Shown here in pieces: positions 8,533 to 36,629 of a DNA stretch of 36,629 nucleotides. The stretch is from a virus: positions 1 through 36,629 of IMG/VR virus record IMGVR_UViG_3300037485_002345. One strand, written 5' to 3'. A model generated the notes under the pieces. The model ran no database searches. It was not told where the DNA came from and worked only from the letters and a program-made list of their open reading frames with translations. The translations under genes and the position numbers were made by a program. The first letter of the stretch is position 1. Every line of letters begins with the position of its first letter.

Positions 8533-8535
8533 GAC

Positions 8536-8552: not shown

Positions 8553-8562
8553 AGTTTTTTCG

Positions 8563-8796: not shown

Positions 8797-8801
8797 AGCG
8801 G

Positions 8802-9155: not shown

Positions 9156-9160
9156 AACGA

Positions 9161-12932: not shown

Positions 12933-12969
12933 TTGTTCAAACCTTTCGTTTCTTTCACATTGCTACAGA

Positions 12970-13886: not shown

Positions 13887-13901
13887 AGAATACACTACCT
13901 T

Positions 13902-14522: not shown

Positions 14523-14527
14523 TTTTG

Positions 14528-15928: not shown

Positions 15929-15952
15929 TTTTTATATTACTCGCCTCTTTAC

Positions 15953-16673: not shown

Positions 16674-17056
16674 GATAACACCACTGTGTTGTTGTGCTGG
16701 CGTTGGCGCAACTTGTCTTGTTGGGTCACTTGGTCGATGGCCGAGGGCAGGCGGTCCAGTAAGGTGTAGGCAAAGAGCTCGGCCATGCCTTTGACATACG
16801 GTGCGACCTCGGCCGGCCCGGCGTTCTTCAGCACAACGGCTGAAGGGATTGCGGCGGCAAGTCCTAACACCATAAACGCTTCATTCGGCTCTAGGTCTCC
16901 CAAACCCACCAATATGCGCCCCAATGCCTGCATGCACGCGTTCAATATGGTGGTTGGATCTTCGCCAGAATGTTTTTTCTGTATTTTACCTAAAGTCGAT
17001 TTAACGATCGCAATGTACGCCTTGTGTGCTTCGTCTGCTGTGACTGCATTGGTCAA
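16670..17056 (-). CDS. Hypothetical helical protein after the helicase
   Basis: Encodes 128 aa from a TTG start at 17056 that overlaps the helicase stop (TTGA), with GAAGGAAG as ribosome site. The product is helical with an alanine/leucine-rich hydrophobic middle (NEAFMVLGLAAAIPSAVVL) and a Gln/Arg-rich end (DKLRQRQHNN). The hydrophobic part is too short and interrupted for a confident membrane call. No family is recognised. Confidence 0.65.
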   Translation of the reverse strand: MTNAVTADEAHKAYIAIVKSTLGKIQKKHSGEDPTTILNACMQALGRILVGLGDLEPNEAFMVLGLAAAIPSAVVLKNAGPAEVAPYVKGMAELFAYTLLDRLPSAIDQVTQQDKLRQRQHNNTVVLS

Positions 17057-18654: not shown

Positions 18655-18808
18655 GCGTGACCTGGACCTTCCTCGATTCCCAAAACAGAGGTCAATCCTA
18701 GCAGTCCCGCAGGTATATCGTCAAGGCCCTAACGGCTTGACGGCGTTTAAAAAGGCGTGCTACGGAATTGACTCTGCGCGAGGAACGGAAGGAGGCAAAG
18801 GTCCATAT
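18655..18808. promoter_or_regulatory. Divergent control region between the two transcription arms
   Basis: The 154 bp between the helicase (leftward) and the DUF3987 gene (rightward) must hold promoters for both arms. An inverted repeat GTCAAG-N10-CTTGAC lies at 18720-18741, and its right arm overlaps a rightward TTGACG (18737-18742) that is followed after 18 bp by TACGGA, a weak -10. The motif GGTATATCGT (18711-18720) recurs in the intergenic region at 20412. Ribosome sites are AGGAGGCAAAGG for 18809 and GAGGAAGG/AGGT for 18654. Confidence 0.55.
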
Positions 18809-20938: not shown

Positions 20939-21604
20939 ATGCCGGCCCAGCCTTTTGCCCTACATTTGTGGGTACAGTCTGACAAATCCCGATGGATTGA
21001 CTATGACATGGACAACATCCTCGAGCGTTCTGCCGAGATGGTGCGCCTGGAAGCCTACGGCGGCTGGTGTGAGGCGCTGTACGCCGAGGCGGTCTCTTAC
21101 CCCCTCCTGCTCACTGCGGACGGCCTAGAAGGCGCTGAGGCCCTTCCAGGCGACCTCCCGCTTACAGCCGCACGTCAGACCTTTGACCCTAAAGGGGACA
21201 ACGGCAAAGTCATCGCCCACGAACTACGCGTAGGTGAGCAAGTGCTTACGCAACGGCCAGCGCTCGTCGAGGCGGGCATCGTGTGGGTCACACCACGTCG
21301 CCAGGATGCCGTAGTGCAGCTCTCACCGCCCGTGGAGAACATCAAGCAGGGTCACACCTGCGAGGGTTGCAAGCGCTTCTCTCGAAGCGATGGGCAACGT
21401 TGGGTGAACGAGACTACGCACGCGTTCAGCGGTGAAGGTCAAAGTAAGCAAATGTGGCATGATGTAATCGCGGCCATTGGGCGGAACACTGACGTCCAGC
21501 TTCCCAACGACCCCGAGGACTGGGGAGCTTGCCTCGAGCACCAGCGGCTCGTCGAGCGCACCTTCCCCGGTTGCCTTGAATTCGTACAGCGAAAGGTGTG
21601 GTAG
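20939..21604 (+). CDS. Hypothetical protein with C-terminal Cys/His motif
   Basis: Encodes 221 aa from ATG at 20939 (AGGAGA upstream). The N-terminal two-thirds is unfamiliar (AEMVRLEAYGGWCEALYAEAVSYP). The C-terminal part contains HTCEGCKRFSRSDGQRWV, then WGACLEHQRLVERTFPGCLEF. The C-x2-C ... C-x3-H ... C pattern suggests a bound zinc ion, a form I have seen in uncharacterised phage proteins. It is the first gene of the rightward virion block. Confidence 0.7.
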   Translation: MPAQPFALHLWVQSDKSRWIDYDMDNILERSAEMVRLEAYGGWCEALYAEAVSYPLLLTADGLEGAEALPGDLPLTAARQTFDPKGDNGKVIAHELRVGEQVLTQRPALVEAGIVWVTPRRQDAVVQLSPPVENIKQGHTCEGCKRFSRSDGQRWVNETTHAFSGEGQSKQMWHDVIAAIGRNTDVQLPNDPEDWGACLEHQRLVERTFPGCLEFVQRKVW

Positions 21605-21663
21605 AGTATGTCTATCGCTATACACTACTATACATAATAGCTACAACCGATAGGAGAAGCTAA

Positions 21664-22167
21664 ATGGCAGAAAAAACTACAACTTTCGACAAAGCAGCCA
21701 AACAGTTCGAGGTGTGGGGAGCGAACAGCACACCTTACGTGAGCTCGAGCGAGGCAAACGCCCAAGGAGACCTACAGCCAGGGCAGAAGCGGATGATCCG
21801 CCCTGACCGGATGGTCACCGAGGACCGCATAGCGGCCATCCAGGCTCATGGATTCTGCCGGCACTTCCGCCTCGAGGATGGCCAGAAGCAGATCGAGTAT
21901 GAACGCTTGTGGGAGCGACTCAAGCACGACGAGAAATACGACCTGTCGTGGTTCATCGTGCACTTCAAAGGCTACGGATTATGTGACGTATTCCAAGGAC
22001 TTGCAGTCAATGCGACGTCACCAGGTAAAGTTCCAAATCACTACGTGAACTCTGGTATCGCGTTCCACTTGAGGGACAAGTCCATCATCTGTCCACATTG
22101 GGAAGATCGTAATCGCCGCGGTGAGAAAATCATGGCCGGCAAGTACACCAAGAGGAGTGAGGTATGA
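21664..22167 (+). CDS. Hypothetical protein of the virion block
   Basis: Encodes 167 aa from ATG at 21664 (AGGAG upstream). It contains no membrane segment. Features: an N-terminal polar region, a central helical part (EDRIAAIQAHGFCRHFRLEDGQKQIEYERLWERL) and a C-terminal part with Cys, His and aromatics (SIICPHWEDRNRRGEK). The 59-bp gap before it has TAG/CTA-rich sequence with TATACA/CATAAT-like elements that might be a promoter. It is coupled to the next gene by ATGA. The function is unknown. Confidence 0.65.
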   Translation: MAEKTTTFDKAAKQFEVWGANSTPYVSSSEANAQGDLQPGQKRMIRPDRMVTEDRIAAIQAHGFCRHFRLEDGQKQIEYERLWERLKHDEKYDLSWFIVHFKGYGLCDVFQGLAVNATSPGKVPNHYVNSGIAFHLRDKSIICPHWEDRNRRGEKIMAGKYTKRSEV

Positions 22168-22484
22168 CAGTGGACTTTGGGATTATGGTCTGGATTGTAC
22201 TGGTAGCCGCAGGGATTAGCTTTGTGATTACGGGCAGCACAATCGCCTATCCCTTCCGCCTGATAGCGCACCTTACGCTCGGCAAGCTCGTGTTAGGACC
22301 AATCCATCTTGACTCGTTATTTCGCTGTCCGTTCTGCAACGCGTGGTGGGGAGGTTTCGGCTTGAGTCTCTGGCTGCACTTGCCATGGTGGCAGGTGATA
22401 GCAAACGCCTTTGTCTCGTGCTTGGCGATGGGCATCGCCCAGGCACAGTGGAGCCTCGCGGCTCATGACGACTTCGACAAGTGA
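22164..22484 (+). CDS. Small membrane protein, DUF1360-like
   Basis: Encodes 106 aa. Three hydrophobic segments are visible: residues about 6-30 (MVWIVLVAAGISFVITGSTI), 55-75 (WWGGFGLSLWLHLPWW) and 78-95 (IANAFVSCLAMGIAQ). FRCPFCNAWWGGF between the first and second is close to the C-x2-C-x-x-(F/W)W core of DUF1360, a family found in phages and spore-forming bacteria. It could be a virion membrane protein or holin-like. AGGAGTGAGG and an ATGA overlap define the start. Confidence 0.65.
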   Translation: MTVDFGIMVWIVLVAAGISFVITGSTIAYPFRLIAHLTLGKLVLGPIHLDSLFRCPFCNAWWGGFGLSLWLHLPWWQVIANAFVSCLAMGIAQAQWSLAAHDDFDK

Positions 22485-22495
22485 GAGGAAAAGCA

Positions 22496-23053
22496 ATGGA
22501 TACCAAAATGATCATCGAAACGACCAACACCAAGCTCGTCGATGCCACGAGCGTTTGCACGGGGATCAACGACACCCTCGAGACGTTTGTGGATGCGCTG
22601 CGCGACGTGCTCGACAACGCCACGGCCATTCAGGCGCAACTTAGCTCTTGGAGCGCTGATGACTTCGCCATGCTGCCCATAGCGCTGCGCGAGGCGGGGT
22701 TTGACTCTGACGCGGTGGTCAGTCTGGTTGAGATCTACCACCGGAACAAGCGCGAGAACGCCAAGCTGCCTTCGGTGCTCGGAACAGTGTTAGACGTTGG
22801 CGCACAGAAGTTGCTCGAGTTCTTTCAGTCCGGCGGACTGGATGCCTTTGTAGCGCAAGTGGCTACGGTTCTGCGCCCTGACACCGAGGCGCATCGCACC
22901 ATGCCCTTTGAGTACTTCCTTCAAATGCTTGAGAGTTATGCGGCGGAAGGCGATGAGGTTTGTATTGAATTGCTTCGCCTCTACCGCGACAGCGTAGCGT
23001 CGTCGGCCGCCGCCGTCAAGGAAAATGGCGAGGAGATCAAAGAAAATGCGTGA
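22496..23053 (+). CDS. Hypothetical helical protein
   Basis: Encodes 185 aa from ATG at 22496 (AGAGG). The sequence is almost entirely helical in appearance, with heptad-like hydrophobic spacing (NDTLETFVDALRDVLDNATAIQAQL ... VVSLVEIYHRNKREN ... LGTVLDVGAQKLLEFF) and a charged end. No family is recognised. Its end overlaps the start of the large 752-aa gene by 8 nt, and the two may cooperate in assembly, by position only. Confidence 0.65.
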   Translation: MDTKMIIETTNTKLVDATSVCTGINDTLETFVDALRDVLDNATAIQAQLSSWSADDFAMLPIALREAGFDSDAVVSLVEIYHRNKRENAKLPSVLGTVLDVGAQKLLEFFQSGGLDAFVAQVATVLRPDTEAHRTMPFEYFLQMLESYAAEGDEVCIELLRLYRDSVASSAAAVKENGEEIKENA

Positions 23054-25304
23054 CTCCATTCTGGGCCCAGATCGCTCGGGAGATCTGCCCAATCCAGATA
23101 ACGACGATCTGCCTCAACGGCCCTTGCGCAGTACCCAAGGTCGGGGCCCCGGCCGCCCGCGCAAGGCTGTCATGGACTTCCCTCCGGCGGACGAGGATGA
23201 AGACGAGCTCAAGTTACCGCCGCCGCTTCCGCCTGGACCGCCCCCCTCACCTGAGAAGCTCGCGGCGATCCGTGAGATGATGCGGAAGGCCGAGGCGTTC
23301 GAGGATCGCGAGAACGAGAAGATCCGGGTGTCCCCCGATTCACCATTGTACGACCTAACAACACCACTCGCTGACATGGACTCGCCCGATCACGAGAAGG
23401 CGGAACGCGAGTTCGAGAAGTGGCAGAAGGAGAATAAAAAAGTGGCCAAAAAGGATGATGTTGCGAGCATGGTGGGAAGGGAGTTGCTGCAAGGCTACAA
23501 GGCCGCGGCAAAGGAGCTGGCGATCTCCCAGCTCGATCCAGGGGTCTCCCCCTTGAGCTCGGTAGCGAACACGATCTCGGCGAGAACGGTTGGTGACCTC
23601 GCCGCGCAGTTCCCGACGGTCAACATGCGCATCAAGCGCCGCAACCCGACAACGATGCGCTGGGAGATCATCCCTGGGCCGCGGGGCATTGACCCGAAGG
23701 CGCTCACCGAGACTGGCGCCCTCGAGGATCTCATCCTCAACTGGTCAGGCGGCGGTGAGTATGACATCGAGCTTGCGGCCCCGGGCACCAAGGGCTTTGT
23801 CCCGATCACTTTCACGATCGACGCGCCGCCTATACCGACACCGGCATTCCGTAATGGTGGAGCCAACTCGTTTGCCCCGGGGGGCCCGCAGGATAGCGCC
23901 CTGGCCAAGTACCTTTCGCAGCAGCAAGGGCAATCGCCGACGCAACAGCAGCAACAGCACGAGCAGGGCGGCCTGCTGAAGCTCGTCGAACAGATGTTGG
24001 CCATGCAGCTCGCGCAGACTATGAACCCGCGGCAAGATGCGTATCAAGGGTCGTCTCGCGAGGTCGAAGAGCTCAAGCGCCAGACGGCCGAGCTGCAGCA
24101 GCAGCTCCGCGCTTCCGAAGATCGTGCTCGAGCGGACCGTGAGCGTGCAGAGATGATGCAGCGCATGGAGGAGATCGGTCGCCGCGCCGATGCCGCTGCA
24201 CAAGTGAAACCGGATCCTCTGTTGACCTTGCTCACCGCTCTTGCTCCGCTCGCGCCAGCGTTCCTTGCCAAGGGCGACAGTGCGGCGATGGCCACGTCTG
24301 CCATGATGCAAGCGGTGCTCAATCAACAGCAGCAGAGCTCGACGACAACGCTCGAGTTGTTCAAGGCCATGAATGCCAAGCCCGAGGTCGAAGAGCGCTT
24401 CGCTGCCCTCGTGGGCACCATGGGGAACATGTCCGCGAACACCATGGCGATGGTCACGCAAGTCATGCAATCCGGTCTGCTCGAGAAGGGCGGCGACTCC
24501 CCAGTCACGCAGATCATTTCGCAGGTCATCGGTGAAGCGGCCGATGTCGCCAAGACACTCTTCGCGAGCGGTGCTTTTGGCGGTGGAAACAACGCACAAG
24601 CAGAGCCCGCGATCGCAGCGCAAGCAACCTCTCTGCCTTCGCTGCCCCCGGCATCGCATATAGTTAGCCAGCCGAGCGCAAATCAGAGCATTGGCGCATT
24701 GCCGGCGCATGTTGCCGAGACGCTTGGGCCCGAGTTCGGACCCGAAGACGAGACCGAGGATGATACCGAAAACGAGGTTGAGAACGAGGTTGAGAACGAC
24801 GTCACCACTGAAGCGTCACTGAGCGATGACAACACCTATAACCTCATGCGCGACACGGCGTTCCGCGAGATCCTCATGCGGATTCGCAACAACGGCGATC
24901 TGCGCGACATCGCGGTGCGGCTCTACAGGCACGGCAATGTGGTCGATCCGGACAACGGGCATCCAGTCGCGAAGATCTGGTTCACCGATCCGCAGAATGC
25001 CGGCAAGGGCATCATGGGGCAGCTCGGCATCGAGCCCGCGCGCATCGAGGAGATCGTTGGGGCCATCGAGGCGCTCACACAACATCTCGCGAGCGGCAAG
25101 GAGCTCAACGAGTATCTGCCCGTGCGGCGCAACCGCGAGAATCGGCGCATTCCGGCGACATCGGCAACGAGCACACAGCTCGGCGAGCACTTCGACGCGA
25201 CGACCATTCAGCGCGTCGCCACCGTGCCGCCAGCTCCCATCGAAGCCACCGAGCAACCCCCGATCGTGGAAGCTGCGTCGGTGAATGCGATCACGGAGGG
25301 CTAA
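23046..25304 (+). CDS. Large low-complexity coiled-coil protein with AT-hook-like N-terminus
   Basis: Encodes 752 aa from ATG at 23046 (GAGGAGA 9 nt upstream; an earlier ATG at 23025 would add MARRSKK). Features in order: a Gly-Arg-Pro AT-hook-like segment (RGPGRPRKA, about 35), an acidic/Pro-rich stretch, a globular part about 130-260, a Gln-rich run (about 290-300), a coiled coil (EVEELKRQTAELQQQLRASEDRARA, about 325-365), Ala/Met-rich segments, an acidic repeat (DETEDDTENEVENEVEN, about 570), and a C-terminal domain (NLMRDTAFREILMRIRNNGDLRDIAVRLY). No known family. Size and composition suggest a structural, scaffolding or DNA-organising role in the virion, by inference. Confidence 0.7.
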   Translation: MRDSILGPDRSGDLPNPDNDDLPQRPLRSTQGRGPGRPRKAVMDFPPADEDEDELKLPPPLPPGPPPSPEKLAAIREMMRKAEAFEDRENEKIRVSPDSPLYDLTTPLADMDSPDHEKAEREFEKWQKENKKVAKKDDVASMVGRELLQGYKAAAKELAISQLDPGVSPLSSVANTISARTVGDLAAQFPTVNMRIKRRNPTTMRWEIIPGPRGIDPKALTETGALEDLILNWSGGGEYDIELAAPGTKGFVPITFTIDAPPIPTPAFRNGGANSFAPGGPQDSALAKYLSQQQGQSPTQQQQQHEQGGLLKLVEQMLAMQLAQTMNPRQDAYQGSSREVEELKRQTAELQQQLRASEDRARADRERAEMMQRMEEIGRRADAAAQVKPDPLLTLLTALAPLAPAFLAKGDSAAMATSAMMQAVLNQQQQSSTTTLELFKAMNAKPEVEERFAALVGTMGNMSANTMAMVTQVMQSGLLEKGGDSPVTQIISQVIGEAADVAKTLFASGAFGGGNNAQAEPAIAAQATSLPSLPPASHIVSQPSANQSIGALPAHVAETLGPEFGPEDETEDDTENEVENEVENDVTTEASLSDDNTYNLMRDTAFREILMRIRNNGDLRDIAVRLYRHGNVVDPDNGHPVAKIWFTDPQNAGKGIMGQLGIEPARIEEIVGAIEALTQHLASGKELNEYLPVRRNRENRRIPATSATSTQLGEHFDATTIQRVATVPPAPIEATEQPPIVEAASVNAITEG

Positions 25305-25307
25305 GCC

Positions 25308-25499
25308 ATGGTAGGTCCATTGCAGCTCAATGTGCGAATAAACGCAGAATGCCACGAAGCCCTTGAGCGCTATCGTTCTAAGTACGAGACTGCCGTGCGC
25401 GAAACGCTTCCAGAATTTCGTCTTACGTTGACGGAAGCTTTTCGCATCATTGTTGCGGGTGCACTCAAGGTCGAAGAACAGAAAAAAAAGAAGGCATAA
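25308..25499 (+). CDS. Small ribbon-helix-helix protein
   Basis: Encodes 63 aa from ATG at 25308 (GGAGG upstream). The strand LQLNVRI, helix A (NAECHEALERYRSKYE) and helix B (LTLTEAFRIIVAGAL) match the ribbon-helix-helix fold of Arc/CopG/Omega-like proteins, with a Lys-rich tail. Directly downstream begins a phased array of nine TAGC motifs (25529-25608), the classical arrangement of an RHH protein and its operator or centromere-like site. It may regulate late genes, or bind DNA in packaging or partition. Confidence 0.6.
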   Translation: MVGPLQLNVRINAECHEALERYRSKYETAVRETLPEFRLTLTEAFRIIVAGALKVEEQKKKKA

Positions 25500-25528
25500 A
25501 TGCTTAATATATCGTATACCGTACTTGA

Positions 25529-25608
25529 TAGCAAGTGCTAGCACTTGTAGCACTTGCTAGCACATGATAGCGCTTGTAGCGTCGATAGCAATGGTAGCAT
25601 TCGATAGC
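25529..25608. repeat. Phased array of nine TAGC motifs (9-10 bp period)
   Basis: TAGC begins at 25529, 25539, 25548, 25558, 25568, 25577, 25586, 25595 and 25605, with gaps of 9 or 10 bp. Several units form palindromes (AAGTGCTAGCACTT at 25533-25546; TTGCTAGCAC nearby), and reversed copies continue at 25612 (GCTA) and 25631 (GCTAGC). About 143 TAGC are expected in the whole window on each strand, so nine in 80 bp with constant phase cannot be chance. It lies between the RHH gene and the transglutaminase gene. Confidence 0.8.
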
Positions 25609-25649
25609 CTTGCTATCATATGTATCTTCTGCTAGCAGAACTATTTTTA

Positions 25650-25677
25650 TTGACATAGCTATTTAGCCTATTACTCT
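25650..25677 (+). promoter_or_regulatory. Candidate promoter before the transglutaminase-like gene
   Basis: TTGACA (25650-25655) is followed after 16 bp by TACTCT (25672-25677). The ATG at 25687 is 9 bp beyond the -10 and has no ribosome site, so the mRNA would be leaderless or nearly so. The same arrangement appears at the RHH gene at 8497. The TAGC array just upstream would be a natural operator. Confidence 0.5.
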
Positions 25678-25686
25678 TGCCATGAT

Positions 25687-26268
25687 ATGGCAGGTAGAGG
25701 AACATCCTTCGGGAAAGCGGCGGTGCACGACGTCTACTCGATAGCCGATCGGCTGAAGCTCATCAATGATCAGGTCTTTAGATCTTTGCGTGATCCAAAG
25801 ATCCGCGCCCTCGCTCTTGAGTTGGTACGGGGCACCGCGCAGCACGGTGAAGAGAGTGAGCTCGAGGAGCTCAAGCGTGTGTTCTGGTTCGTCAAGAACA
25901 ACATTGAGTATCGCCAAGATCCTTTCCCGTATGACCTTTACGCTTCGGCCGAGAGGGTGCTTCAAGCAGGCGCGGGTGACTGCGACTGTCACACTTGCCT
26001 CATTAACGCGCTAATCGGGAATATCGGATTTGTGCCTGGCGCGAAGATCATTTCAGCGGATAACGCCAACTGGCACATCTACGCTGTGACCTGCGTGTTT
26101 CCGCGGCACAATCCCTACGCGCCAACTGCGCGGTATCTGGCACTAGATACTACACAGATCCCTGCCTTTCCAGGATGGGAACCGCCCCTCAAGTTTCGTC
26201 GCTACGCCAAAATGGTCACGTTTACTGACGCTGGCCCAAGAATACGGGAGCTGAAAGCCAATGGCTGA
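25687..26268 (+). CDS. Transglutaminase-like cysteine protease/acyltransferase fold protein
   Basis: Encodes 193 aa. The transglutaminase-like triad is visible: Cys99 in GAGDCDCHT, His130 in NANWHIYAV and Asp154 in YLALDTT. The order and spacing of Cys, His and Asp match the superfamily, whose bacterial members are mostly peptidases or amide-bond enzymes. FWFVKNNIEYRQDPF before the Cys is also typical of the family. In a virion gene cluster it could process capsid proteins or act on host wall peptides. The start has no ribosome site. The end overlaps the next start. Confidence 0.75.
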   Translation: MAGRGTSFGKAAVHDVYSIADRLKLINDQVFRSLRDPKIRALALELVRGTAQHGEESELEELKRVFWFVKNNIEYRQDPFPYDLYASAERVLQAGAGDCDCHTCLINALIGNIGFVPGAKIISADNANWHIYAVTCVFPRHNPYAPTARYLALDTTQIPAFPGWEPPLKFRRYAKMVTFTDAGPRIRELKANG

Positions 26269-26947
26269 TGACTATCTCTACGGCCTGCACCCTTACCTGC
26301 GCAATGACGCTAGGGCGCAGAAGCTCGGCGGGCGCGGACCGCATAATGTCCCCGGTGGTATCGACCCCCGCGGTCTTGGGTCAGACGCTAGCCCGTCAAT
26401 GCCGAACTTCGGCGCGCTGAACCAGCCGCTCGGGACGTCCATGTCGACGCAGGCAGCAGATCGCCTCGATCAGTTCGGAAAGGCAGTGAAGCGCCGTTTT
26501 GCCAAGGTCGCCTACAGCGAGCAGACGCGCTTCAACCCCGGCACTACGATCCATCACCTGGCCGAAGAGCCCAAGCTGCGAACGGCTGGCCCTGCTCGGC
26601 GGATGAACCAGGATATGATGAGAGCTTCTATGATGCAGAGTTCCGCCACAATGCGGAGCGTAGCGTCAGTCGACAACCAAGTCAAGAAAATTGTCGCGGA
26701 AAAAGAGGCGCTCAACGCGCAGCGGCGGCGCATCCAGATCGCAGGAGATCTCGAGCGTGAAGCCATGAGCCTCGAGCAGTCTGCGATCAAGGCTGCGAAC
26801 AAGGGCGTCGAGGTCGCTGATAGTTTGATCGACCAGATTCCCAACATCCAGTTGGTTGCCAGTCAAGGTCGAACCATGAACACCGCGCTTGTGCTCGGTG
26901 CGATCGCTCTTGGTGTCATCGCTGCAACGATGCTTGCACGGAGATAG
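26261..26947 (+). CDS. Tail-anchored membrane protein, candidate virion membrane protein
   Basis: Encodes 228 aa. The first 85 residues are polar with Gly/Pro (RNDARAQKLGGRGPHNVPGG), then a long helical or coiled-coil region (VDNQVKKIVAEKEALNAQRRRIQIAGDLEREAMSLEQ), and a single C-terminal hydrophobic helix (residues about 206-226, TALVLGAIALGVIAATMLARR). A single terminal anchor on a small protein is usual for internal-membrane viruses. It starts inside the end of the transglutaminase gene and precedes another membrane-anchored protein. No known family. Confidence 0.7.
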   Translation: MADDYLYGLHPYLRNDARAQKLGGRGPHNVPGGIDPRGLGSDASPSMPNFGALNQPLGTSMSTQAADRLDQFGKAVKRRFAKVAYSEQTRFNPGTTIHHLAEEPKLRTAGPARRMNQDMMRASMMQSSATMRSVASVDNQVKKIVAEKEALNAQRRRIQIAGDLEREAMSLEQSAIKAANKGVEVADSLIDQIPNIQLVASQGRTMNTALVLGAIALGVIAATMLARR

Positions 26948-26953
26948 TTACAG

Positions 26954-29206: not shown

Positions 29207-29213
29207 TTGTTAA

Positions 29214-29531
29214 ATGGCCCAAGTCATCACCTTGAGCGGTATGGAAAAGTCGGCGGTCGTGCCGAGCAAGTACCGCAAATGCACACCGGCTACTGTTGAT
29301 TCGTCGGTGCTTGGGCGTTCGGTGCAGGTGTGTCAGGAAGATTTGCTCACCATCGAGCAGGCTGGTGAGCTCGGGCCAGGTAGCCCCAAGGTGAAGCGCA
29401 TGCGCCGCAAGTATGCGCGCAAGCGGTTGGCGCCTTGTCAGAAGGCAGTGTGGTTCCAAGGGCCTAAAGGCAAGCGCTGTAAGTGCGTCTTGGGCAACAA
29501 GTCGTTTGTGAAGAATAGTGAGTGCACTTGA
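29214..29531 (+). CDS. Small basic Cys-containing protein
   Basis: Encodes 105 aa from ATG at 29214 (AAGGTAG upstream). The product is very basic (KVKRMRRKYARKRL ... KGKRCKCVLGNKSFVKNSEC) with six Cys residues, two as C-x-C near the end. This suggests metal binding or disulfides plus nucleic-acid contact. No family is recognised. It ends near two hairpins and before a multi-spanning membrane protein. Confidence 0.6.
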   Translation: MAQVITLSGMEKSAVVPSKYRKCTPATVDSSVLGRSVQVCQEDLLTIEQAGELGPGSPKVKRMRRKYARKRLAPCQKAVWFQGPKGKRCKCVLGNKSFVKNSECT

Positions 29532-29536
29532 ATTGC

Positions 29537-29585
29537 AACGGGCAATTTCGCCCGACAGAAAGCTGACGGGCCTATTTTCCCGTCG
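29537..29585 (+). other. Two adjacent RNA hairpins between 29214 and 29602 genes
   Basis: CGGGC-AATTTC-GCCCG (about 29538-29553) and GACGGG-CCTATTTT-CCCGTC (about 29564-29583) form two short GC-rich stems. They fall inside a possible N-terminal extension of the next gene and argue that this part is untranslated leader. They may adjust expression of the downstream membrane protein. No T run follows, so they are not obvious terminators. Confidence 0.4.
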
Positions 29586-29601
29586 CATGGAGCTAGTTGA
29601 G

Positions 29602-30120
29602 ATGTCAAAGCGCAATGATTATGTGCTGGCTCGCGACGCTGCCGACGAAGGCAACATCGGGGCCCTGGACCTCGAAATCCTGTCTGGTTTGGACCTGACC
29701 GCAGACGTGATTATCCCCCCGGTGATCGGTGTCGGCGTTGCTGCGATCAGCGACATGTTGATCCGTCGTTACAGTTCTTCAACGAGCTTCATGCGCAAGT
29801 ACTCCCCCCTGTTGGGCGGTGTTCTGGGCGCGGTAGCGTCAATTCCGCTGAAGTACTGGAAGGGCGACGCCGCAATGACCTCGGGGGCCGTGTCCGCGCT
29901 GCTCTATGGCGGCTGGAAGTTCCTCGTGCCGATGCTCGAGAACCTCGGCGAGACTTTCAGCATCCTGCCGCCAGCAAGGGTGGGCGGTCTGACCCTTGAG
30001 AGACTCAACGGTCTGACCCTCGAGCGCATGGGCGCGCTTCCCCAGATCACGGATGGTTACGACCGCGTGCCGGCGTCGATTCGCTCGACTGTCGACATGA
30101 GCGCCTACGGTCGCGTGTAG
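29602..30120 (+). CDS. Multi-spanning membrane protein, candidate virion membrane protein
   Basis: Encodes 172 aa from ATG at 29602 (GGAG 9 nt upstream). A longer version from GTG at 29518 (200 aa) would translate the two hairpins and is less likely. Three hydrophobic segments lie at about 34-54 (ADVIIPPVIGVGVAAISDML), 67-86 (PLLGGVLGAVASIPLKYW) and 92-112 (SGAVSALLYGGWKFLVPML). The C-terminal part has two tandem copies of GLTLERLNG/GLTLERMGA. Together with the neighbouring anchored proteins it points to a virion with a lipid membrane. No known family. Confidence 0.7.
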   Translation: MSKRNDYVLARDAADEGNIGALDLEILSGLDLTADVIIPPVIGVGVAAISDMLIRRYSSSTSFMRKYSPLLGGVLGAVASIPLKYWKGDAAMTSGAVSALLYGGWKFLVPMLENLGETFSILPPARVGGLTLERLNGLTLERMGALPQITDGYDRVPASIRSTVDMSAYGRV

Positions 30121-30194
30121 GAGACTTGAGACCGAAGACAAAACCGCGGGCTCATAAATTATGGCCTGCCAAAAGCGTAAAGAGGTAGATTCCC

Positions 30195-30263
30195 ATGGCA
30201 GTTATCAAAGACATCGAGTTCGGAGATGGAAATGTGGTCAGTATCACGGATTGGGGTAAATGA
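30195..30263 (+). CDS. Possible 22-residue leader peptide
   Basis: ATG at 30195 opens a 22-codon frame (MAVIKDIEFGDGNVVSITDW plus GK, stop at 30261-30263) with AGAGG 9 nt upstream. A second frame from ATG at 30161 (32 aa, ending at 30259) overlaps it. Neither has an obvious homologue. The peptide ends 1 nt before a large structured hairpin, an arrangement often seen in leader peptides that regulate downstream genes. Confidence is limited by size. Confidence 0.4.
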   Translation: MAVIKDIEFGDGNVVSITDWGK

Positions 30264-30264
30264 T

Positions 30265-30301
30265 AGTTGCCCCCCTCCGCGGTAACGCGGTAGGGATAAC
30301 T
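30265..30301 (+). ncRNA. Structured hairpin with GNRA tetraloop in the leader of the 30324 gene
   Basis: Nested pairing: AGTT (30265-30268) with AACT (30298-30301), CCCT (30273-30276) with AGGG (30292-30295), CCGCG (30277-30281) with CGCGG (30286-30290), a bulged T at 30291 and the loop GTAA (30282-30285), a GNRA tetraloop in RNA. The stem lies between a short peptide frame and the AAGGAG ribosome site of 30324. It could be a translational control element, a protein-binding site or a packaging signal. Confidence 0.45.
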
Positions 30302-30323
30302 GGATAAACGAAGGAGACTTCGG

Positions 30324-30632
30324 GTGAAAGAGTGCTGCAATAAAATTTGGAATGAGCAAGCTGATTATGCTCGTCAAATTTTTATGTTTATCTCTTTTGC
30401 TAACGGGGAAATCTTAGCAGGCGCATTAGGCGCGCTGAAGACAATCCCGTCGGAAGCTATGGGAAACGTGATTAGTACCATAGAACCGCTAGAGAGCAGG
30501 CTGACGAGTAGCGTAAACAGTAATTCAGCCCACGAGCGTCCAGCACCCCAATGGGGTGAAGATGTGCTCCGATCCTCGGAGAAATTCGAGAGCTGGGATA
30601 AAGAGCCCAGCGAAGAGGCGGCCCATGCTTAA
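30324..30632 (+). CDS. Hypothetical protein upstream of the capsid-like genes
   Basis: Encodes 102 aa from GTG at 30324, with AAGGAG 8 nt upstream. The N-terminal 45 residues contain a partly hydrophobic segment (QIFMFISFANGEILAGALGAL), and the rest is polar and acidic with many Ser and Glu. It overlaps the first capsid-like gene by 8 nt, implying coupled expression. The function is unknown. A scaffolding or assembly role is only a guess from position. Confidence 0.6.
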   Translation: MKECCNKIWNEQADYARQIFMFISFANGEILAGALGALKTIPSEAMGNVISTIEPLESRLTSSVNSNSAHERPAPQWGEDVLRSSEKFESWDKEPSEEAAHA

Positions 30633-31314
30633 CCAGCAACAAGAGATGGACTATCCCTTGTGGAGCCGCTGCTACGTCGCAACGGAAGCTGGCTTCAACC
30701 AAGCCCAGAGCTTCTTCCAGTACTTGGTAGGCCAGGCGGGCCCCGGTATCACCACGGCCACGGACATCGACACCAACATGCCCGCCAACGGCAACCTGCC
30801 GGCGTCGCATGAGATGTTGATCTATTCGATCCAGATCATCCCGGACGAAGTTGTCGGGCAGAACAGCGTTCTCGGCGGTGTGACCTATACCCCCGGCGAT
30901 TTGCTTCCCGTCTTCAACGTCATTCAGGGCATGCAGAAGTGGCGGACCTACTTCGACAACCTCCTGTTCCAGCTCCGTATCGAGCAGAGCAAGACCTACG
31001 TCGAAGGGCGCATTGACCACTTCCCGCAAGGCGGCGGTCTCGAGATCGCTGGTCCCGGTACCGTGGCCATTCTGCCGGCGGACGCGGCCTTCACGTCAGC
31101 CTACACGATCAGCAACGGCATGCGGACATGGGAAGCTGCGCGCCGGCTCGCGACACCGATCTATCTCGGTTCTCTCGAGACGTTCCGCGGTATCCTGTCC
31201 CGCCCCCGTGGCGTGACGGCGAACCAGGGAACAGCGCCGATCGCGTACAGCGTTACACACGGCGGCGCCTTCACGGTCCGCCTCACTGGTCCGCGCAAGC
31301 GCCCGACCATGTGA
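30625..31314 (+). CDS. Candidate capsid protein 1 (beta-rich, 229 aa)
   Basis: Encodes 229 aa from ATG at 30625 (AGAGG 6 nt upstream). It has no membrane segment and alternates strand-like segments with loops: HEMLIYSIQIIPDEVVG, WRTYFDNLLFQLRIEQSKTYVEGRI, GPGTVAILPADAAFTSAYTIS and a final AFTVRLTGPRKRP. The size and strand-rich pattern suit a single jelly-roll coat protein such as those of P23-77-like viruses. The DNA is GC-rich, unlike the next three capsid-like genes. No sequence family is recognised, so the capsid role is inferred from fold-like pattern and position. Confidence 0.55.
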   Translation: MLNQQQEMDYPLWSRCYVATEAGFNQAQSFFQYLVGQAGPGITTATDIDTNMPANGNLPASHEMLIYSIQIIPDEVVGQNSVLGGVTYTPGDLLPVFNVIQGMQKWRTYFDNLLFQLRIEQSKTYVEGRIDHFPQGGGLEIAGPGTVAILPADAAFTSAYTISNGMRTWEAARRLATPIYLGSLETFRGILSRPRGVTANQGTAPIAYSVTHGGAFTVRLTGPRKRPTM

Positions 31315-31386
31315 TGTTCTTTGCTTTGGTGTTTGGTGCCCTCGAGGAGCTGCGCAACACGGTTCCTCTGTTCGTGCCTTGAAACC

Positions 31387-31433
31387 TTGGAGCCGATCGG
31401 GTGCGAGTCCCCCCTCACCTCGCTCGGCTCCAA
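31387..31433 (+). ncRNA. Long hairpin in the leader of the second capsid-like gene
   Basis: TTGGAGCCGA (31387-31396) pairs perfectly with TCGGCTCCAA (31424-31433). The interior can add GGT/ACC and GAG/CTC pairs around a small bulge and a C-rich loop. After the stem comes tctttgac, a poor T run. It may be an attenuator between GC-rich and AT-rich capsid genes, an RNA processing site, or part of a tRNA-like structure with the segment at 31446. Confidence 0.5.
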
Positions 31434-31445
31434 TCTTTGACGCAC

Positions 31446-31468
31446 GAGCTCAGTTGGTTAGAAGGAGC
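31446..31468 (+). other. tRNA D-arm-like sequence in the leader of 31477
   Basis: GAGCTCAGTTGGTTAGA (31446-31462) is identical to the D-arm of many bacterial tRNAs, and a GAGC (31465-31468) further on can pair with GCTC. No anticodon arm or acceptor partner follows. Instead the segment runs into AAGGAG, the ribosome site, and the ATG at 31477. It is a tRNA-derived remnant or a co-opted leader structure rather than a tRNA gene. Confidence 0.5.
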
Positions 31469-31476
31469 GTTAGAAG

Positions 31477-32514
31477 ATGACCGAGAAAGCGACACGTTAT
31501 ATACCGCGTTGGCTGCATTTTAAGGCTAACGTTACTTCAGACCTTACTGGTTTCGTGTTTACAGAAATTCCGCCTAACGCTTTCGCGAATGAAGGCATTT
31601 GGCCTTACCATCTCGAGTATTTAACTATTTCTGGGTTTCCGCCAGGCGCACCTACTGGCGGTGTGTTGCCTGGGTATTTTTGGGGCGGTGTCGGTAACTG
31701 CGTTAACATAGAGCTCGGTATTTCTGGCGTTTCGGACATCAACCAAGTAACGGCCACAGCAACAACTATTATGGGGCATGGGCCGCGTGCCGTGCTTTGT
31801 CCTTCGTATTCGCCGATCAGTAACGGCGGTGCGCCGCCATACTACGATGATGTGTTTATCCAAAAGCTCAAATATCCTTATCTGCTTAATCGCGGTAATG
31901 GGTTGAATGTCGAGTTTCGCAGTGCTCGGGATGACTGGCAATATGACGCACTTAATCAGCCTTACCAAGGTTTGCCAGCGTTTGCCGCGCATGGTAGAAG
32001 TCTTAAAGGCAATCATCCGGTAATGATCGCCGGTAATTACCGAACTACTGACAATCCCAACGCTTTTCCTGCGATTAACGGTGGTGGCGGTATTAGCTTT
32101 AATAAAGCTGATTTAGTGAATGATGGAAAAGATGATGTGTTGCTAGATACATTGTGTTTTTCGTGTCCGTTAGTAAATGTCGCTTATATAGACGATTCTG
32201 GTCATGGTGCGCTAATTGGCGCTTATAGTGAATATTTAGTTAATCCGATCAATGGACCAAAATGGATGCCAGGGTCTAACCCCATCCCATTAATGGGATT
32301 ATGTCCCGGTTCGTTGCCGTGGCCTATGCAAGTTGGTGTGCAGCCTATAGTGCACACTCCCGCCGTGTATCAATTTCCAGAATCTACGACGCTAAACAGA
32401 CGACAACGGTTGAGTGTGCGAATGTTCAACAACGCCATGTATCCTGCCGCGCAAGTGGTATCTATGCCAGTGCGCGTTGACGTCACGTTGTTCGGGTATT
32501 TGGAGGTAAACTAA
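31477..32514 (+). CDS. Candidate capsid protein 2 (jelly-roll-like, 345 aa)
   Basis: Encodes 345 aa with AAGGAG upstream. The protein is strand-rich with many Gly/Pro loops, no membrane segment and no low complexity. Its C-terminal third (GPKWMPGSNPIPLMG ... NRRQRLSVRMFNNAMYPAAQ ... PVRVDVTLFGYLEV) aligns with the C-terminal third of the 33329 protein, so the two are paralogues. The ending, a run of strand followed by LFGYLEV, is like the last strand of jelly-roll capsid proteins. The DNA is markedly AT-rich compared with the 30625 and 34393 genes. It is a good candidate for a major or minor coat protein. Confidence 0.6.
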   Translation: MTEKATRYIPRWLHFKANVTSDLTGFVFTEIPPNAFANEGIWPYHLEYLTISGFPPGAPTGGVLPGYFWGGVGNCVNIELGISGVSDINQVTATATTIMGHGPRAVLCPSYSPISNGGAPPYYDDVFIQKLKYPYLLNRGNGLNVEFRSARDDWQYDALNQPYQGLPAFAAHGRSLKGNHPVMIAGNYRTTDNPNAFPAINGGGGISFNKADLVNDGKDDVLLDTLCFSCPLVNVAYIDDSGHGALIGAYSEYLVNPINGPKWMPGSNPIPLMGLCPGSLPWPMQVGVQPIVHTPAVYQFPESTTLNRRQRLSVRMFNNAMYPAAQVVSMPVRVDVTLFGYLEVN

Positions 32515-33332
32515 TGACTGAGGTTAACTATTTACCTGCAATTAAAAGAGCGGTATTGGCACCGGCCGCTGGATTGCGCCAAGCTCCTGTTAGGGCTGAT
32601 TTTGATTTTGGCAATAAGCGTGTGCACCTTACTGACGTAGCTTTTTTTCAGTTAATTGGAACCGCGGTTAATAATCCTCCGATTATAACCGTTGGTGGAA
32701 CATTGGCACGTATTGGAAAATTCGGTAGTGAGCTGCTAACGGAAGATTTTTATCCGTTGACTATGTTTGGCACAAAGCCTCGGCAAGAGTACGGTGTTTG
32801 GGAATTCCCAAAACCTTATAGATTATTTCCAGGTGAGCGTCTTAGCGCTTCTATTACATACGCTGCCGGAGCCGGAGCTCGGGGAGGTGAACGCGATTGC
32901 ACGGTTCCGGCTGTGCAATTTAATGCTGTGCGCATTGTGGATAACCGCCCTATCTTGCTACATGATAATGCTAATGCGCGAATGGGTGGAGTAGCTGCTA
33001 CGTCGATTAGACTAATATCCGAAAATTTGCAATGTCCGGCAGATTCACCAATTGATATTTATTCTTGCGTTTTACAGCCGAATTCCGGTAGTACAACCGT
33101 ATTTGGAGCCATAACGGTTACTGAGCTTATGATCTATGGGCCAGATGGGCGTAAATGGTGGGACGACCCTACATGGCGCTTTTTGTTTGATACTCCTGGA
33201 TTTCTCATGGATCTCGGTAAATCGGAATGGATTCTCGAGCCAGGTGAAAGTTTTTATGCTGAATTTATCACCCCCGCCGCTGCATGCGATCTTGCTATTG
33301 TTTTGCGAGGTCAGATTGAGGTGATGAAGTGA
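32514..33332 (+). CDS. Candidate capsid protein 3 (two-domain jelly-roll-like, 272 aa)
   Basis: Encodes 272 aa, starting at an ATG overlapping the previous stop (TAATG). Two halves each contain an L-x-PGE-x-L/F pattern: FPKPYRLFPGERLSASITYA (about 98-117) and WILEPGESFYAEFITPA (about 238-254), the second followed by the strand AIVLRGQIEV at the end. Such PGE turns followed by a strand and a final hydrophobic strand are common in viral beta-sandwich coat proteins. The repeat suggests a double-domain capsid protein or an internal duplication. It lies between two paralogous capsid-like genes in an AT-rich block. Confidence 0.6.
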   Translation: MTEVNYLPAIKRAVLAPAAGLRQAPVRADFDFGNKRVHLTDVAFFQLIGTAVNNPPIITVGGTLARIGKFGSELLTEDFYPLTMFGTKPRQEYGVWEFPKPYRLFPGERLSASITYAAGAGARGGERDCTVPAVQFNAVRIVDNRPILLHDNANARMGGVAATSIRLISENLQCPADSPIDIYSCVLQPNSGSTTVFGAITVTELMIYGPDGRKWWDDPTWRFLFDTPGFLMDLGKSEWILEPGESFYAEFITPAAACDLAIVLRGQIEVMK

Positions 33333-34396
33333 CAATAAGAGATCCACGACAAGCGTTTGTCCCTGGACAGTGGCTTGGACCCGTTGCTTTGGGTACTAGG
33401 GAAAAACCGACTGGTGGAACCGTTTCTACTGTACAGTTGGCGCGAGCAGGCGAACGTGCGGCACAACGCTATCCATGGATGACGGTTATTCCCGTCACTA
33501 TGGCCAGTCTTGCGACTAGTCCGGTTGTGCGCGTAACGCGCGCCGATCCTGGATCAATCGGTGAGACAGCGTTCGTTAATAACATGAACCGTATTGTTCA
33601 TATCAAAGAAATACGGTTTATGGCTATGGCTCCACCGGGATCTGTTACTTACACATTTGATCTTGCACGCCGTTTCGGTGTGTCCATCAAGCATACTAGC
33701 TACGATATTGTTCGTGATTTTCTACCGTTGTACGCATTAGCGACATACAACAATTTTGCTAGTACTTGCTATGATGGATCTTTGTCGTTCGCCCTTCCCG
33801 CTAAATACACTGCCCCAAAGGGCAATGGGTTTACGATGATCGCTAGAAACACAGCTGCACCAATTGCTGGCGGCGGTGTGTTAGGTATATCAGTCAATGG
33901 TAGCGATGAACGCGGAAATCCGTATGTATTAGCGCGTGAGGCTAGCCCTGCGTTAACTCATACTACTTTCCAGTTTACGGAAAATACTGGCGCAGGTTCC
34001 TTAAAGAATTGCCTTATAGAGCGCATTAACTTTAATGTGTCTCGCAACTTCACAACTGCTTATGATTCGTTTTTATGGGGATTGCAAACTGAAGTGCAAT
34101 TCGTTCCACCAGAGGGACCGAAATGGCATGGCGGAAACGAATGGTTTCCTATCAATGGTATTGTTGATCAGCCTGTAGCAAACGTGGTAGATACGCAAGG
34201 TTTACCCGACGTTATATGTCATCAAAATATTGTTAGTTATCGCCCGGTGACGCCGCATATCGTTACACCGCGCCAAGCGATTTCTGTTGATTTAAAGTGT
34301 TACCAGAATGCTTCTTATTTCGCTGGTCAAAATGAAATTTTTCGAGTGCCAATTTGGGTCATCATGCTCGGTACACAGGAGTCATTGACAGCATGA
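33329..34396 (+). CDS. Candidate capsid protein 4, paralogue of capsid protein 2 (355 aa)
   Basis: Encodes 355 aa from GTG at 33329, which overlaps the preceding stop (GTGA). C-terminal alignment with the 31477 protein: GPKWHGGNEWFPINGI versus GPKWMPGSNPIPLMGL, then TPRQAISVDLKCYQNASYFAGQ versus NRRQRLSVRMFNNAMYPAAQ, then RVPIWVIMLG versus MPVRVDVTLFG. The N-terminal half differs and includes a strand-rich region (HIKEIRFMAMAPPGSVTYTFDLARR). Paralogous coat proteins side by side are known from P23-77-type viruses (VP16/VP17). It ends in an ATGA overlap with the next gene. Confidence 0.6.
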   Translation: MTIRDPRQAFVPGQWLGPVALGTREKPTGGTVSTVQLARAGERAAQRYPWMTVIPVTMASLATSPVVRVTRADPGSIGETAFVNNMNRIVHIKEIRFMAMAPPGSVTYTFDLARRFGVSIKHTSYDIVRDFLPLYALATYNNFASTCYDGSLSFALPAKYTAPKGNGFTMIARNTAAPIAGGGVLGISVNGSDERGNPYVLAREASPALTHTTFQFTENTGAGSLKNCLIERINFNVSRNFTTAYDSFLWGLQTEVQFVPPEGPKWHGGNEWFPINGIVDQPVANVVDTQGLPDVICHQNIVSYRPVTPHIVTPRQAISVDLKCYQNASYFAGQNEIFRVPIWVIMLGTQESLTA

Positions 34397-34695
34397 AAAA
34401 ACGACTTGAAATGGATCGCATGTCCGTGGATTGCGCGCCAAAGCCTGCTTACACTGCCACAGCAGCTTGTGTTGTAACGATTTGGTGTTTGCCTAACCTC
34501 GAGGTCGAGCAAGACGAGAAGGCCGAGTTTAGCCACATTTATGTGGGATTCTCGCTAGAAGCCACGACGGTTGATCACGGTACCCCGTTGCCCGAGGATC
34601 ACCCGGTAGACGTGCCGCTCGCCGCGGGAGAGACCCTTTACGCCGTGACCACCGACTACGCCTACCTTGGGTATGTCGCGGTGAGCGAGGAGTAG
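34393..34695 (+). CDS. Small beta-rich protein, candidate minor virion protein
   Basis: Encodes 100 aa from ATG at 34393 (ATGA overlap). The sequence is strand-rich: AACVVTIWCLPNLEV, FSHIYVGFSLEATTVDHGTPLP, DVPLAAGETLYAVTTDYAYLGYVAVSEE. The GTPLPE ... PLAAGETLYAV core resembles small beta-sandwich proteins found at the surface of phage particles. GC-rich composition resumes partway through the gene (from about 34490). The role is inferred only from position and strand pattern. Confidence 0.6.
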   Translation: MKKRLEMDRMSVDCAPKPAYTATAACVVTIWCLPNLEVEQDEKAEFSHIYVGFSLEATTVDHGTPLPEDHPVDVPLAAGETLYAVTTDYAYLGYVAVSEE

Positions 34696-34699
34696 TCTG

Positions 34700-35689
34700 T
34701 TGATTACGCCCATCAAGCTTGCTCCTGCATGGGTCGGTTACAATGAGCCGCTCGACCCGTCGCGTCACTACGCCGTGCGGTTGTTCGCGACGAGCGCGAG
34801 TGTGGCCGAGGCTGACCGCGTCGAGTTTCTCAAGCAGTTGTCAAAATACGCTGGTGTTGAAATCCCGCTGGCCTACAAGTCCGCGGTGCTCGAACTTCCT
34901 TCACGCGGGATCAATCTTCCCTACGCCCCGAGCTCGAGCTTCGTCGAGCTCCCGGTTGGCTCCAACGTGGCCTGGCTGTTCTTTGTGCAGCCGGTTGACG
35001 CGTTCGTGACGCCAGCGCAGCTCAACATCGTGGCTGGTGTGCTTGACCCTCGCGTGACGGCGGTGCTCGTCGAGCGCGCCCAATCCGCTGTGGTCACTGA
35101 GTCAGTGCTCGAGGGCGTGGAGAGTCCAGACTACCGCGACACGCTCGCCAAAGACGTTGCGCGACCCTATCCCTACGACAAGGCTTTGCTCTCAGATCGC
35201 GGGTACATTGGCGTCTTCCACTTCAAGACCGCTATGCCCGGCGAGGTAGAGCTCAAGGCCAAGCTCGCCACTCGCGACATTGAATATATCGACCTCGGTA
35301 GCGGTTACCAACTCAAGATGACCGGCGAAGGTTGGATAGCCGTGGTCATGGCGACCGGTGGTCGTCCACCGACGCCGCGCGAGCTCGCTTATCTGCTCGG
35401 CGCGCAGACCGTTTACATCGATCGCCGCACCGAGCTTTCAGCAAACTTTGTACGAACGGCCGGCATCACGGGAACGATCGATGACGTGCTGCAGCGCGTG
35501 ATTCACCTTGGCGCGACGATCCCGCAAGCCGGCATCGCCTTCACGGAGTTCGCTGCGGTAGAGCTGCCAGAGCTCGGGCTCAACATCTTGAACGCGGTCA
35601 AGTGGCTTGCTCTTGTCGGCGCTGGCATCTTTGCCGGCGGTTTGTTGTCACGCGTTTGGCGATCTTCGCAGAAGGGCAAACCCAAATGA
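34700..35689 (+). CDS. Tail-anchored membrane protein, candidate virion protein
   Basis: Encodes 329 aa from TTG at 34700 with GAGGAG 7 nt upstream. The bulk is soluble with mixed strands and helices (FVELPVGSNVAWLFFVQPVDAF, GEGWIAVVMATGG, PPTPRELAYLLGAQTVYIDRR). Residues about 301-322 form a single C-terminal membrane helix (AVKWLALVGAGIFAGGLLSRVW) followed by a basic tail (RSSQKGKPK). It is the third single-anchor protein of the block and another indication of a membrane in the particle. No known family. It is coupled to the next gene by ATGA. Confidence 0.7.
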   Translation: MITPIKLAPAWVGYNEPLDPSRHYAVRLFATSASVAEADRVEFLKQLSKYAGVEIPLAYKSAVLELPSRGINLPYAPSSSFVELPVGSNVAWLFFVQPVDAFVTPAQLNIVAGVLDPRVTAVLVERAQSAVVTESVLEGVESPDYRDTLAKDVARPYPYDKALLSDRGYIGVFHFKTAMPGEVELKAKLATRDIEYIDLGSGYQLKMTGEGWIAVVMATGGRPPTPRELAYLLGAQTVYIDRRTELSANFVRTAGITGTIDDVLQRVIHLGATIPQAGIAFTEFAAVELPELGLNILNAVKWLALVGAGIFAGGLLSRVWRSSQKGKPK

Positions 35690-35850
35690 CGATAGCCCAG
35701 AACAACCAGAATAAGGCCAAGGCGATCGATGCAGTGGCCGGTATCCTTCAAGCGCTCGTCAAGGGCATGGCCAAGAAGAAGCCTGGCAGCGGCAGCGGCC
35801 CACAGAACACGAACATCGCCGGTTGCGGCGGATGCTCGGCTAAGAAGTAG
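35686..35850 (+). CDS. Small basic Gly/Cys protein
   Basis: Encodes 54 aa from ATG at 35686 (ATGA overlap). It has a helical N-terminal part (AKAIDAVAGILQALVKGMAKKK), a Gly/Ser linker (PGSGSGP) and a C-terminal AGCGGCSAKK. The two Cys spaced by two Gly could form a disulfide, bind a metal or carry a lipid. It is placed between a membrane protein and the peptidoglycan-binding protein. The function is unknown. Confidence 0.6.
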   Translation: MTIAQNNQNKAKAIDAVAGILQALVKGMAKKKPGSGSGPQNTNIAGCGGCSAKK

Positions 35851-35853
35851 ATT

Positions 35854-36629
35854 ATGGCAAATCAGGACATCCGCCGAATTCAAAGCGCACTCGATCGCTA
35901 CAGCTTCAAGCTCAATATCACGGGCGCATGGGATAGCATGACGTGCCAGGCGTTGCTCGGGTTCCAGGCGAGCAAGTACGGCACGGCCAAGCAGAACTAC
36001 CTCGACTCCGAGACCTTCATGGATCTTGGGTTTGACGCCAAGACCGCAGATCGCTTTGAACAAGCCTTTGGGCATATCTGCGGCGGTGTGGACGTGGCCC
36101 CCTCGACCTACGGCAACACCGTGGGAACAGGTTTGTCCGGGCCTGTGAAGCGCATCCAGCGCGCATTGCGCGTCAAGGAGTCAGGTAAGCTCGATGCGAA
36201 GACCTGCTCGAGGCTCACCGAACTCGCGCAGAACCATGGTGAGAAGGCGTTGATCACGCGTTCCGGTCTCGAGCGCCTTGGCTTCACCTCGACCGAGGCG
36301 GTTGCGCTCGCCGAGCAGTTTGCTTTCGCGCAGTGCACAGCGCGAGGGCGATCTGTGGTCGCAGGTGTTGGCCTCGACTATCCTGGCTTCAGTCGCTTCC
36401 GTGGTGCTGACGCCGACGCTTATGAGCAGAGCGACCAAAACCCAGATGATTCTTGGGAGCTCGAGTACGACCGCAGTGAGAGCTATGCGGACCAGGCGGC
36501 CGTATGGGCAAAGGTTCTTCCCGCTGGGCACCACTGGTGCACCGCGACACCGAGCTCGCTCAAAGCCACTGGCGACTGGCTGCTCGTTGATCAGTCGGCC
36601 AACGGCATCAAGCGCAAGCAGTTCAGTGA
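35854..36629 (+). CDS. Protein with two peptidoglycan-binding-like modules, open at the window end
   Basis: The frame from ATG at 35854 runs 258 codons without a stop to the last base. If the molecule is circular it continues GAG GAA TGA across the junction (260 aa in total). Two modules resemble PG-binding-1 repeats: IRRIQSALDRYSFKLNITGAWDSMTCQALLGFQ (about 6-38) and VKRIQRALRVKESGKLDAKTCSRLTELAQ (about 97-125). Each is followed by a segment ending in LGF (DLGFDAKTADRFEQAF, RLGFTSTEAVALAEQF). The C-terminal 90 residues are acidic and Trp-rich. It is probably a virion or lysis protein that touches the host wall. No catalytic domain is visible. Confidence 0.75.
   Translation, partial: MANQDIRRIQSALDRYSFKLNITGAWDSMTCQALLGFQASKYGTAKQNYLDSETFMDLGFDAKTADRFEQAFGHICGGVDVAPSTYGNTVGTGLSGPVKRIQRALRVKESGKLDAKTCSRLTELAQNHGEKALITRSGLERLGFTSTEAVALAEQFAFAQCTARGRSVVAGVGLDYPGFSRFRGADADAYEQSDQNPDDSWELEYDRSESYADQAAVWAKVLPAGHHWCTATPSSLKATGDWLLVDQSANGIKRKQFS

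Follow-up and report, generated by a model that had tools for sequence, protein, structure and literature searches.

The question raised by the 36.6 kb virus record IMGVR_UViG_3300037485_002345, the whole of which was analysed and is called the window here, is what kind of virion its long rightward arm encodes. An initial annotation of the DNA had proposed a large tailless phage containing a membrane. The observation behind that proposal, an unrecognised rightward arm that is rich in membrane anchors and beta-biased proteins and has no known tail or packaging genes, stands, but its accompanying description of the record as a complete genome does not. From our analysis, the most likely single reading, which we put at about an even chance, is that the window covers part of the genome of a large tailless phage that contains a membrane and is of the grade of the bacterial virus SSIP-1.

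The window consists of two divergent arms (Table 1, in which genes are named by their first coordinate). The leftward arm, from about 18.65 kb, carries replication, recombination, and lysis genes recognised by Pfam and PHROGs, and represents the standard module with which phages replicate and recombine their DNA. The right arm has a DUF3987 primase-type gene followed by 20 rightward genes that run to the end of the record (20.9-36.6 kb). The primase-type gene is listed with a TTG start that overlaps the SNF2 gene; its translation probably begins further in. Most of the rightward genes are preceded by good Shine-Dalgarno (SD) sequences, which shows that these genes are real. A second IMG/VR contig (IMGVR_UViG_3300037488_001957, 14.4 kb) showed about 92% DNA identity over much of 18005-4230, indicating that the lineage is real and that the matched part is not a chimera from a single sample. 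The similarity between the two has gaps near 12.4-13.2 kb and 13.9-14.5 kb of the window. The roughly 870 bp between genes at 20072-20938 are AT-rich, contain direct as well as inverted repeats of poly-T/A, and lie near the point where the cumulative GC skew is lowest; this stretch is a candidate origin or regulatory region.

Table 1. Features of the window with their positions, strands, and supporting evidence.
Position	Strand	Feature	Evidence
4..288	+	phrog_9437-type gene, apparently 5'-truncated at record start	PHROGs profile alignment
2591..18654	-	Whole replication/recombination/lysis arm	Pfam/PHROGs
2591	-	dNMP phosphatase	Pfam/PHROGs
4654	-	SLT transglycosylase with N-terminal anchor	Pfam/PHROGs
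5455	-	C-terminally anchored protein	Hydrophobicity count
9164-11782	-	Uracil-DNA glycosylase, 3'-5' exonuclease, and family A polymerase (PolA) fusion, 873 aa	
13164	-	Sak4-like ATPase	Pfam/PHROGs
13905	-	RNase_T exonuclease	Pfam/PHROGs
14531	-	PD-(D/E)XK nuclease	Pfam/PHROGs
15956	-	Dam methylase	Pfam/PHROGs
17056	-	SNF2 helicase	Pfam/PHROGs
18575..20071	+	DUF3987 primase/helicase-type protein at divergence point	Pfam 1.2e-16; PHROG DNA primase
22164	+	Protein with N-terminal anchor	Hydrophobicity scale
23025..25304	+	759-aa Gln-rich coiled-coil protein, upstream of transglutaminase-like gene	Helix-biased; no family (Pfam, NCBIfam)
25687..26268	+	Transglutaminase-like protein	Pfam 5.3e-6
26261..26947	+	C-terminally membrane-anchored protein, 228 aa	
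26954..29206	+	750-aa protein, N-terminal anchor, helix-rich body	Repeat-like stretches judged by eye
29518..30120	+	Hydrophobic membrane protein, immediately 5' of beta-rich genes	
30625..31314	+	Beta-rich protein	ATG 30625 with SD 6 nt upstream
31477..32514	+	Beta-rich protein, capsid or spike candidate, paralogue of 33329	SD AAGGAG
32514..33332	+	Beta-rich protein, capsid or spike candidate	SD GGAGGT
33329..34396	+	Beta-rich protein, paralogue of 31477	Has SD
34393..34695	+	Small protein after beta-rich set, mixed propensity, no family	SD at ATG 34393
34700..35689	+	C-terminally membrane-anchored protein, 329 aa, basic tail	Has SD
35854..36629	+	Peptidoglycan-binding protein, no stop before record end	Pfam PG_binding_1 7.5e-6

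Searches of the 20 rightward proteins with Pfam, PHROGs, and NCBIfam gave no match to a terminase, portal, HK97, tape-measure, baseplate, or fibre protein, as the initial annotation had stated, and the terminase, portal, or tail profile match that it had regarded as counter-evidence was not obtained in these libraries. Above the cut-off, the three libraries recognised only Transglut_core (25687) and PG_binding_1 (35854) among these proteins. The only tail-like match, to a PHROG tape measure on 23025, was set aside as noise (E = 0.066 over a coiled-coil stretch). The suggested DUF1360-like membrane protein found no support in Pfam. Of the wall-binding and wall-cutting proteins assigned to this arm, the binding domain was recovered in 35854, but the cutting enzyme is the SLT transglycosylase of the left arm.

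Among open frames of at least 200 codons in the whole record, canonical Walker A motifs occur only in the Sak4 and SNF2 proteins, and no P-loop was found in the rightward arm. As in the earlier statement, no packaging ATPase of the FtsK/HerA type was found in this probably incomplete record, and neither was an ATPase of the SSIP-1 gp40 type. In SSIP-1, gp40 (24775-25737) is listed as structural, contains a RecA/KaiC-like AAA_25 domain, forms its own PHROG family, and has been predicted to be the packaging ATPase (PMC4124505). The Sak4-like protein, which is the only protein of the window comparable to gp40, did not match the gp40 family. We considered it as a packaging motor and rejected it: it shares the P-loop alone with gp40 and sits among recombination genes. 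SSIP-1 gp40 also weakly matches UvsX-like and Sak4-like PHROGs.

Membrane anchors were found at the C-terminus of 26261 and 34700 and at the N-terminus of 22164 and 26954, in agreement with the membrane proteins first noted in the rightward arm. For 29518, where three helices had been seen, one segment exceeded the threshold on a crude hydrophobicity scale. We then counted as tail-anchored every ORF of at least 150 aa whose sole hydrophobic segment lies at the C-terminus, using one procedure for all genomes. The window has 3 such ORFs among 31 (5455, 26261, and 34700), six tailless membrane viruses together have 8 among 87, and nine tailed phages have 1 among 275, and that one is antisense to annotated genes. 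The difference between the window and the tailed phages gives p = 0.0035, with a crude scale, a small sample, and a length limit picked after a first look. When the limit was lowered to 100 aa, the difference persisted (p = 0.008), with one of the then four window matches being a probable antisense ORF. In terms of this frequency, the window fits the tailless membrane viruses and not the tailed phages, which favours a membrane virion. This comparison is independent of the completeness of the record, and we consider it the best support for the tailless membrane idea.

The four proteins that had been called capsid-like, 30625, 31477, 32514, and 33329, indeed rank among the most beta-biased of the record, with a bias comparable to that of PRD1 P3 and P23-77 VP17. 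Their proposed jelly-roll folds were not obtained; AlphaFold, applied to 32514 alone and to 31477 and 33329 as a pair, gave pLDDT values of 28-29 and no usable model. We infer that the coat candidates may have such folds. The proteins 31477 and 33329 are paralogues (blastp E 0.001; z 6.4, 0 of 300 shuffles), and the weak similarity between 30625 and 32514 (z 2.4-4.2) may reflect a relationship. The candidates showed no similarity, in sequence or profile, to the capsid proteins of SSIP-1, P23-77, SH1, PM2, PRD1, and FLiP. Relatives of them were found neither by tblastn in phages and plasmids, where 34700 was also searched with the same result, nor among PDB sequences, nor in 398 bacterial genomes from the phylum of the Rhodocyclaceae bacterium; for 31477, 33329, and their alignment, IMG/VR gave none. 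The trio 31477-33329 has T-rich third codon positions (0.38-0.42, vs 0.13-0.27 in the other rightward genes measured), and this shared feature indicates that the three genes form a single unit, which was imported as a block or is subject to a different expression pressure. The GC3 of the trio (31477-34396) is 0.36-0.44, with about 0.6-0.8 in most neighbours, and the capsid genes of SSIP-1 and P23-77 show no such codon shift.

SSIP-1 (Salisaeta icosahedral phage 1) had been named as the closest virus in size and form, and its genome is reported to have hardly any similarity to GenBank entries (PMC6356626). When all window proteins were compared with all ORFs of six tailless viruses, there was one significant match, between 25687 and SSIP-1 gp34, an annotated structural protein (phmmer 7e-6, blastp 1e-8); both are transglutaminase-like. 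This link (z 13.6) was not retained as specific because cellular transglutaminases score equally high or higher. The transglutaminase scans returned cellular proteins only, and tblastn over 50,697 phage records found no tailed phage matching gp34. In terms of homology of structural genes to SSIP-1 or Halopanivirales-type viruses, we thus found this one domain, which is not specific. SSIP-1 is nevertheless a fair comparison in its arrangement, in which gp33 and gp34, like 23025 and 25687, are a Gln-rich coiled-coil gene adjoining a transglutaminase-like gene. The proteins 23025 and gp33 are alike in composition and position, and 29518 and gp44 in position, without significant sequence similarity (z 1.9 and 1.8, respectively); parallels noted by eye to gp33, gp44, gp45-47, gp48, and gp55 were scored, and none was significant. 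Both genomes belong to large bacterial viruses, lack recognisable tail genes, encode many C-terminally anchored proteins, and have paralogous coat-type genes 3' of a membrane protein, gp45 and gp46 (z 18.5) being the counterpart of the pair 31477 and 33329. They differ in that SSIP-1 has an integrase, a sigma factor, and the structural ATPase gp40, whereas the window has PolA, Sak4, and SNF2 and no gp40-type ATPase, and their coat proteins are not detectably related. SSIP-1 gp34, gp44, gp45, and gp46 have no PHROGs match, and therefore the silence of such libraries is expected for this grade of virus.

The Thermus phage P23-77 and the Haloarcula virus SH1 are Halopanivirales with two major capsid proteins formed by vertical single beta-barrels. 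Their adjacent coat genes of unequal size within a late cluster are comparable to the beta-rich genes of the window, and their virions contain a membrane. However, they have annotated packaging ATPases, genomes of 17 and 31 kb, and no sequence similarity to the window. The 10-17 kb range that had been given for PRD1, PM2, and P23-77 types omits SH1, at 30.9 kb. Phages from Methylomirabilis reactors, including an unassigned icosahedral one with a putative membrane, were set aside, since the genome sizes reported for them differ and terminases or a translocase are described.

Whether the missing functions are truly absent depends on the completeness of the record. Its ends show no direct terminal repeat, and the ORF at 4-288 matches phrog_9437 only from profile position 17 onward. 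Every homologue inspected has a conserved N-terminal segment of the ILxQLGGxRFxAMTGAK type, in place of which the window ORF has only (G)MMRMIGVSN. Of 49 alignments, most begin at one of residues 1-4; for two phages the alignment begins at residue 15, and inspection showed that both of these also contain the QLGG-type segment. In contrast, the ends can be joined into a circle that looks like a gene boundary: gene 35854 would stop two codons past the join with its TGA overlapping ATG 4, and an SD would arise 9 nt before ATG 13; a join of at least this quality appeared in 0.09% of random-join trials. This value first looked decisive, but with the Met-rich start of gene 4-288 taken into account, a gene-like join would be expected in about 2% of cases, and we dropped the join as proof of completeness, considering the missing N-terminus. 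In the circle, the frame upstream of this ORF is closed by a TGA, and therefore the QLGG segment would be absent there also. For the genome to be complete, the record would have to be cut exactly between two genes, which is rare, and the gene would have to have lost its N-terminus, which is rare too. The record has neither a terminal repeat nor intact genes over the joined ends, and the earlier description of the genome as complete was not upheld; the left end lies most probably inside a gene, as its alignments suggest, and we consider completeness rather improbable. That the window is a complete circular tailless phage genome as given, packaged by the Sak4-like or SNF2 ATPase or by a host motor in place of a dedicated ATPase, is improbable. 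Slightly less probable again is a complete or near-complete genome that founds a new family-level group among the large tailless membrane phages, combining a tailed-phage replication arm with unrecognised jelly-roll coats and packaging about 37 kb without an FtsK/HerA or terminase motor. With a record that is probably incomplete, the failure to find packaging, portal, and ATPase genes is no evidence of their absence from the virus. For this reason, the new or host-dependent packaging mechanism that had been put forward is unsupported, as packaging genes may sit on the missing stretch. The tailless membrane virion is plausible and has an independent quantitative support in the tail-anchor frequency, but the argument from absence would require a complete genome.

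The same incompleteness would suit a fragment of an unfamiliar tailed phage (Caudoviricetes), with terminase, portal, capsid, and tail genes on a missing stretch between 35854 and 4-288. In this case, the beta-rich trio would be receptor-binding or spike proteins within a right arm of accessory, host-takeover, and surface genes. Foreign codon usage is common for exchangeable receptor genes, and the composition of the trio would agree with this role. The replication genes and gene 4-288 have relatives in tailed phages, and all relatives of the latter with a stated taxonomy are tailed. The Caudoviricetes Rhodobacter RcSpartan, Pseudomonas PMBT14, and Gordonia Cleo share the layout with a leftward polymerase, Cas4-type exonuclease, and Sak4/RecA-like genes and a rightward primase or recombinase, and in RcSpartan the primase is rightward and gene 4-288 has a homologue. 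However, in these phages, which have a related polymerase or a similar layout, most of the late arm is annotated as head or tail, including terminase, portal, capsid, tape measure, and tail genes, and their rightward accessory arms have mostly small genes. Here, at least nine rightward proteins exceed 200 aa without one PHROG structural match, the 16 kb right arm has no recognisable late gene, and the tail-anchored frequency is unlike that of the nine tailed phages. We therefore regard a tailed-phage fragment as possible but clearly less likely than a tailless membrane phage. A virion that is tailless but has no internal membrane, or one of an altogether unfamiliar kind, for example pleomorphic, with the anchored proteins serving lysis or host takeover, agrees with the lack of direct evidence for a lipid vesicle and with the anchored proteins 5455 and 4654 in the early arm. 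The tail-anchored proteins 26261 and 34700 lie within the cluster of structural candidates of the late arm, and such a virion is improbable in our view.

A tailless, membrane-containing phage is favoured because of the lack of tail and packaging matches, the share of tail-anchored proteins, the beta bias, the paralogous pair, and the SSIP-1-like gene class. The lack of coat similarity, the unspecific transglutaminase domain, the missing ATPase, the probable incompleteness of the record, the foreign-looking codon usage, and the tailed-phage relatives of the replication genes and of gene 4-288 count against it. Under this reading, the record would represent most, but probably not all, of the genome, with leftward replication and recombination genes of the tailed-phage kind and a rightward late arm that would give rise to an icosahedral virion. 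The coat or spike proteins 31477, 32514, and 33329, and perhaps 30625, would assemble around a membrane vesicle bearing proteins with single C- or N-terminal helix anchors (26261, 26954, 34700, and perhaps 29518, 4654, and 5455). These anchored proteins may help the membrane and the DNA to pass through the host wall. The location of the proteins in the virion, the presence of the membrane, and the entry mechanism are proposed from the gene content, and the packaging motor is probably encoded in the unsequenced part.

To our knowledge, SSIP-1 is almost the sole known example of a tailless membrane phage of bacteria with a genome above 20 kb. If the window represents a second, independent large lineage, such viruses would have been missed because profile libraries fail on their coat proteins, and their replication genes would be exchangeable with those of tailed phages. 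Our study suggests that a high share of tail-anchored proteins without a terminase is a usable sign for finding more such viruses.
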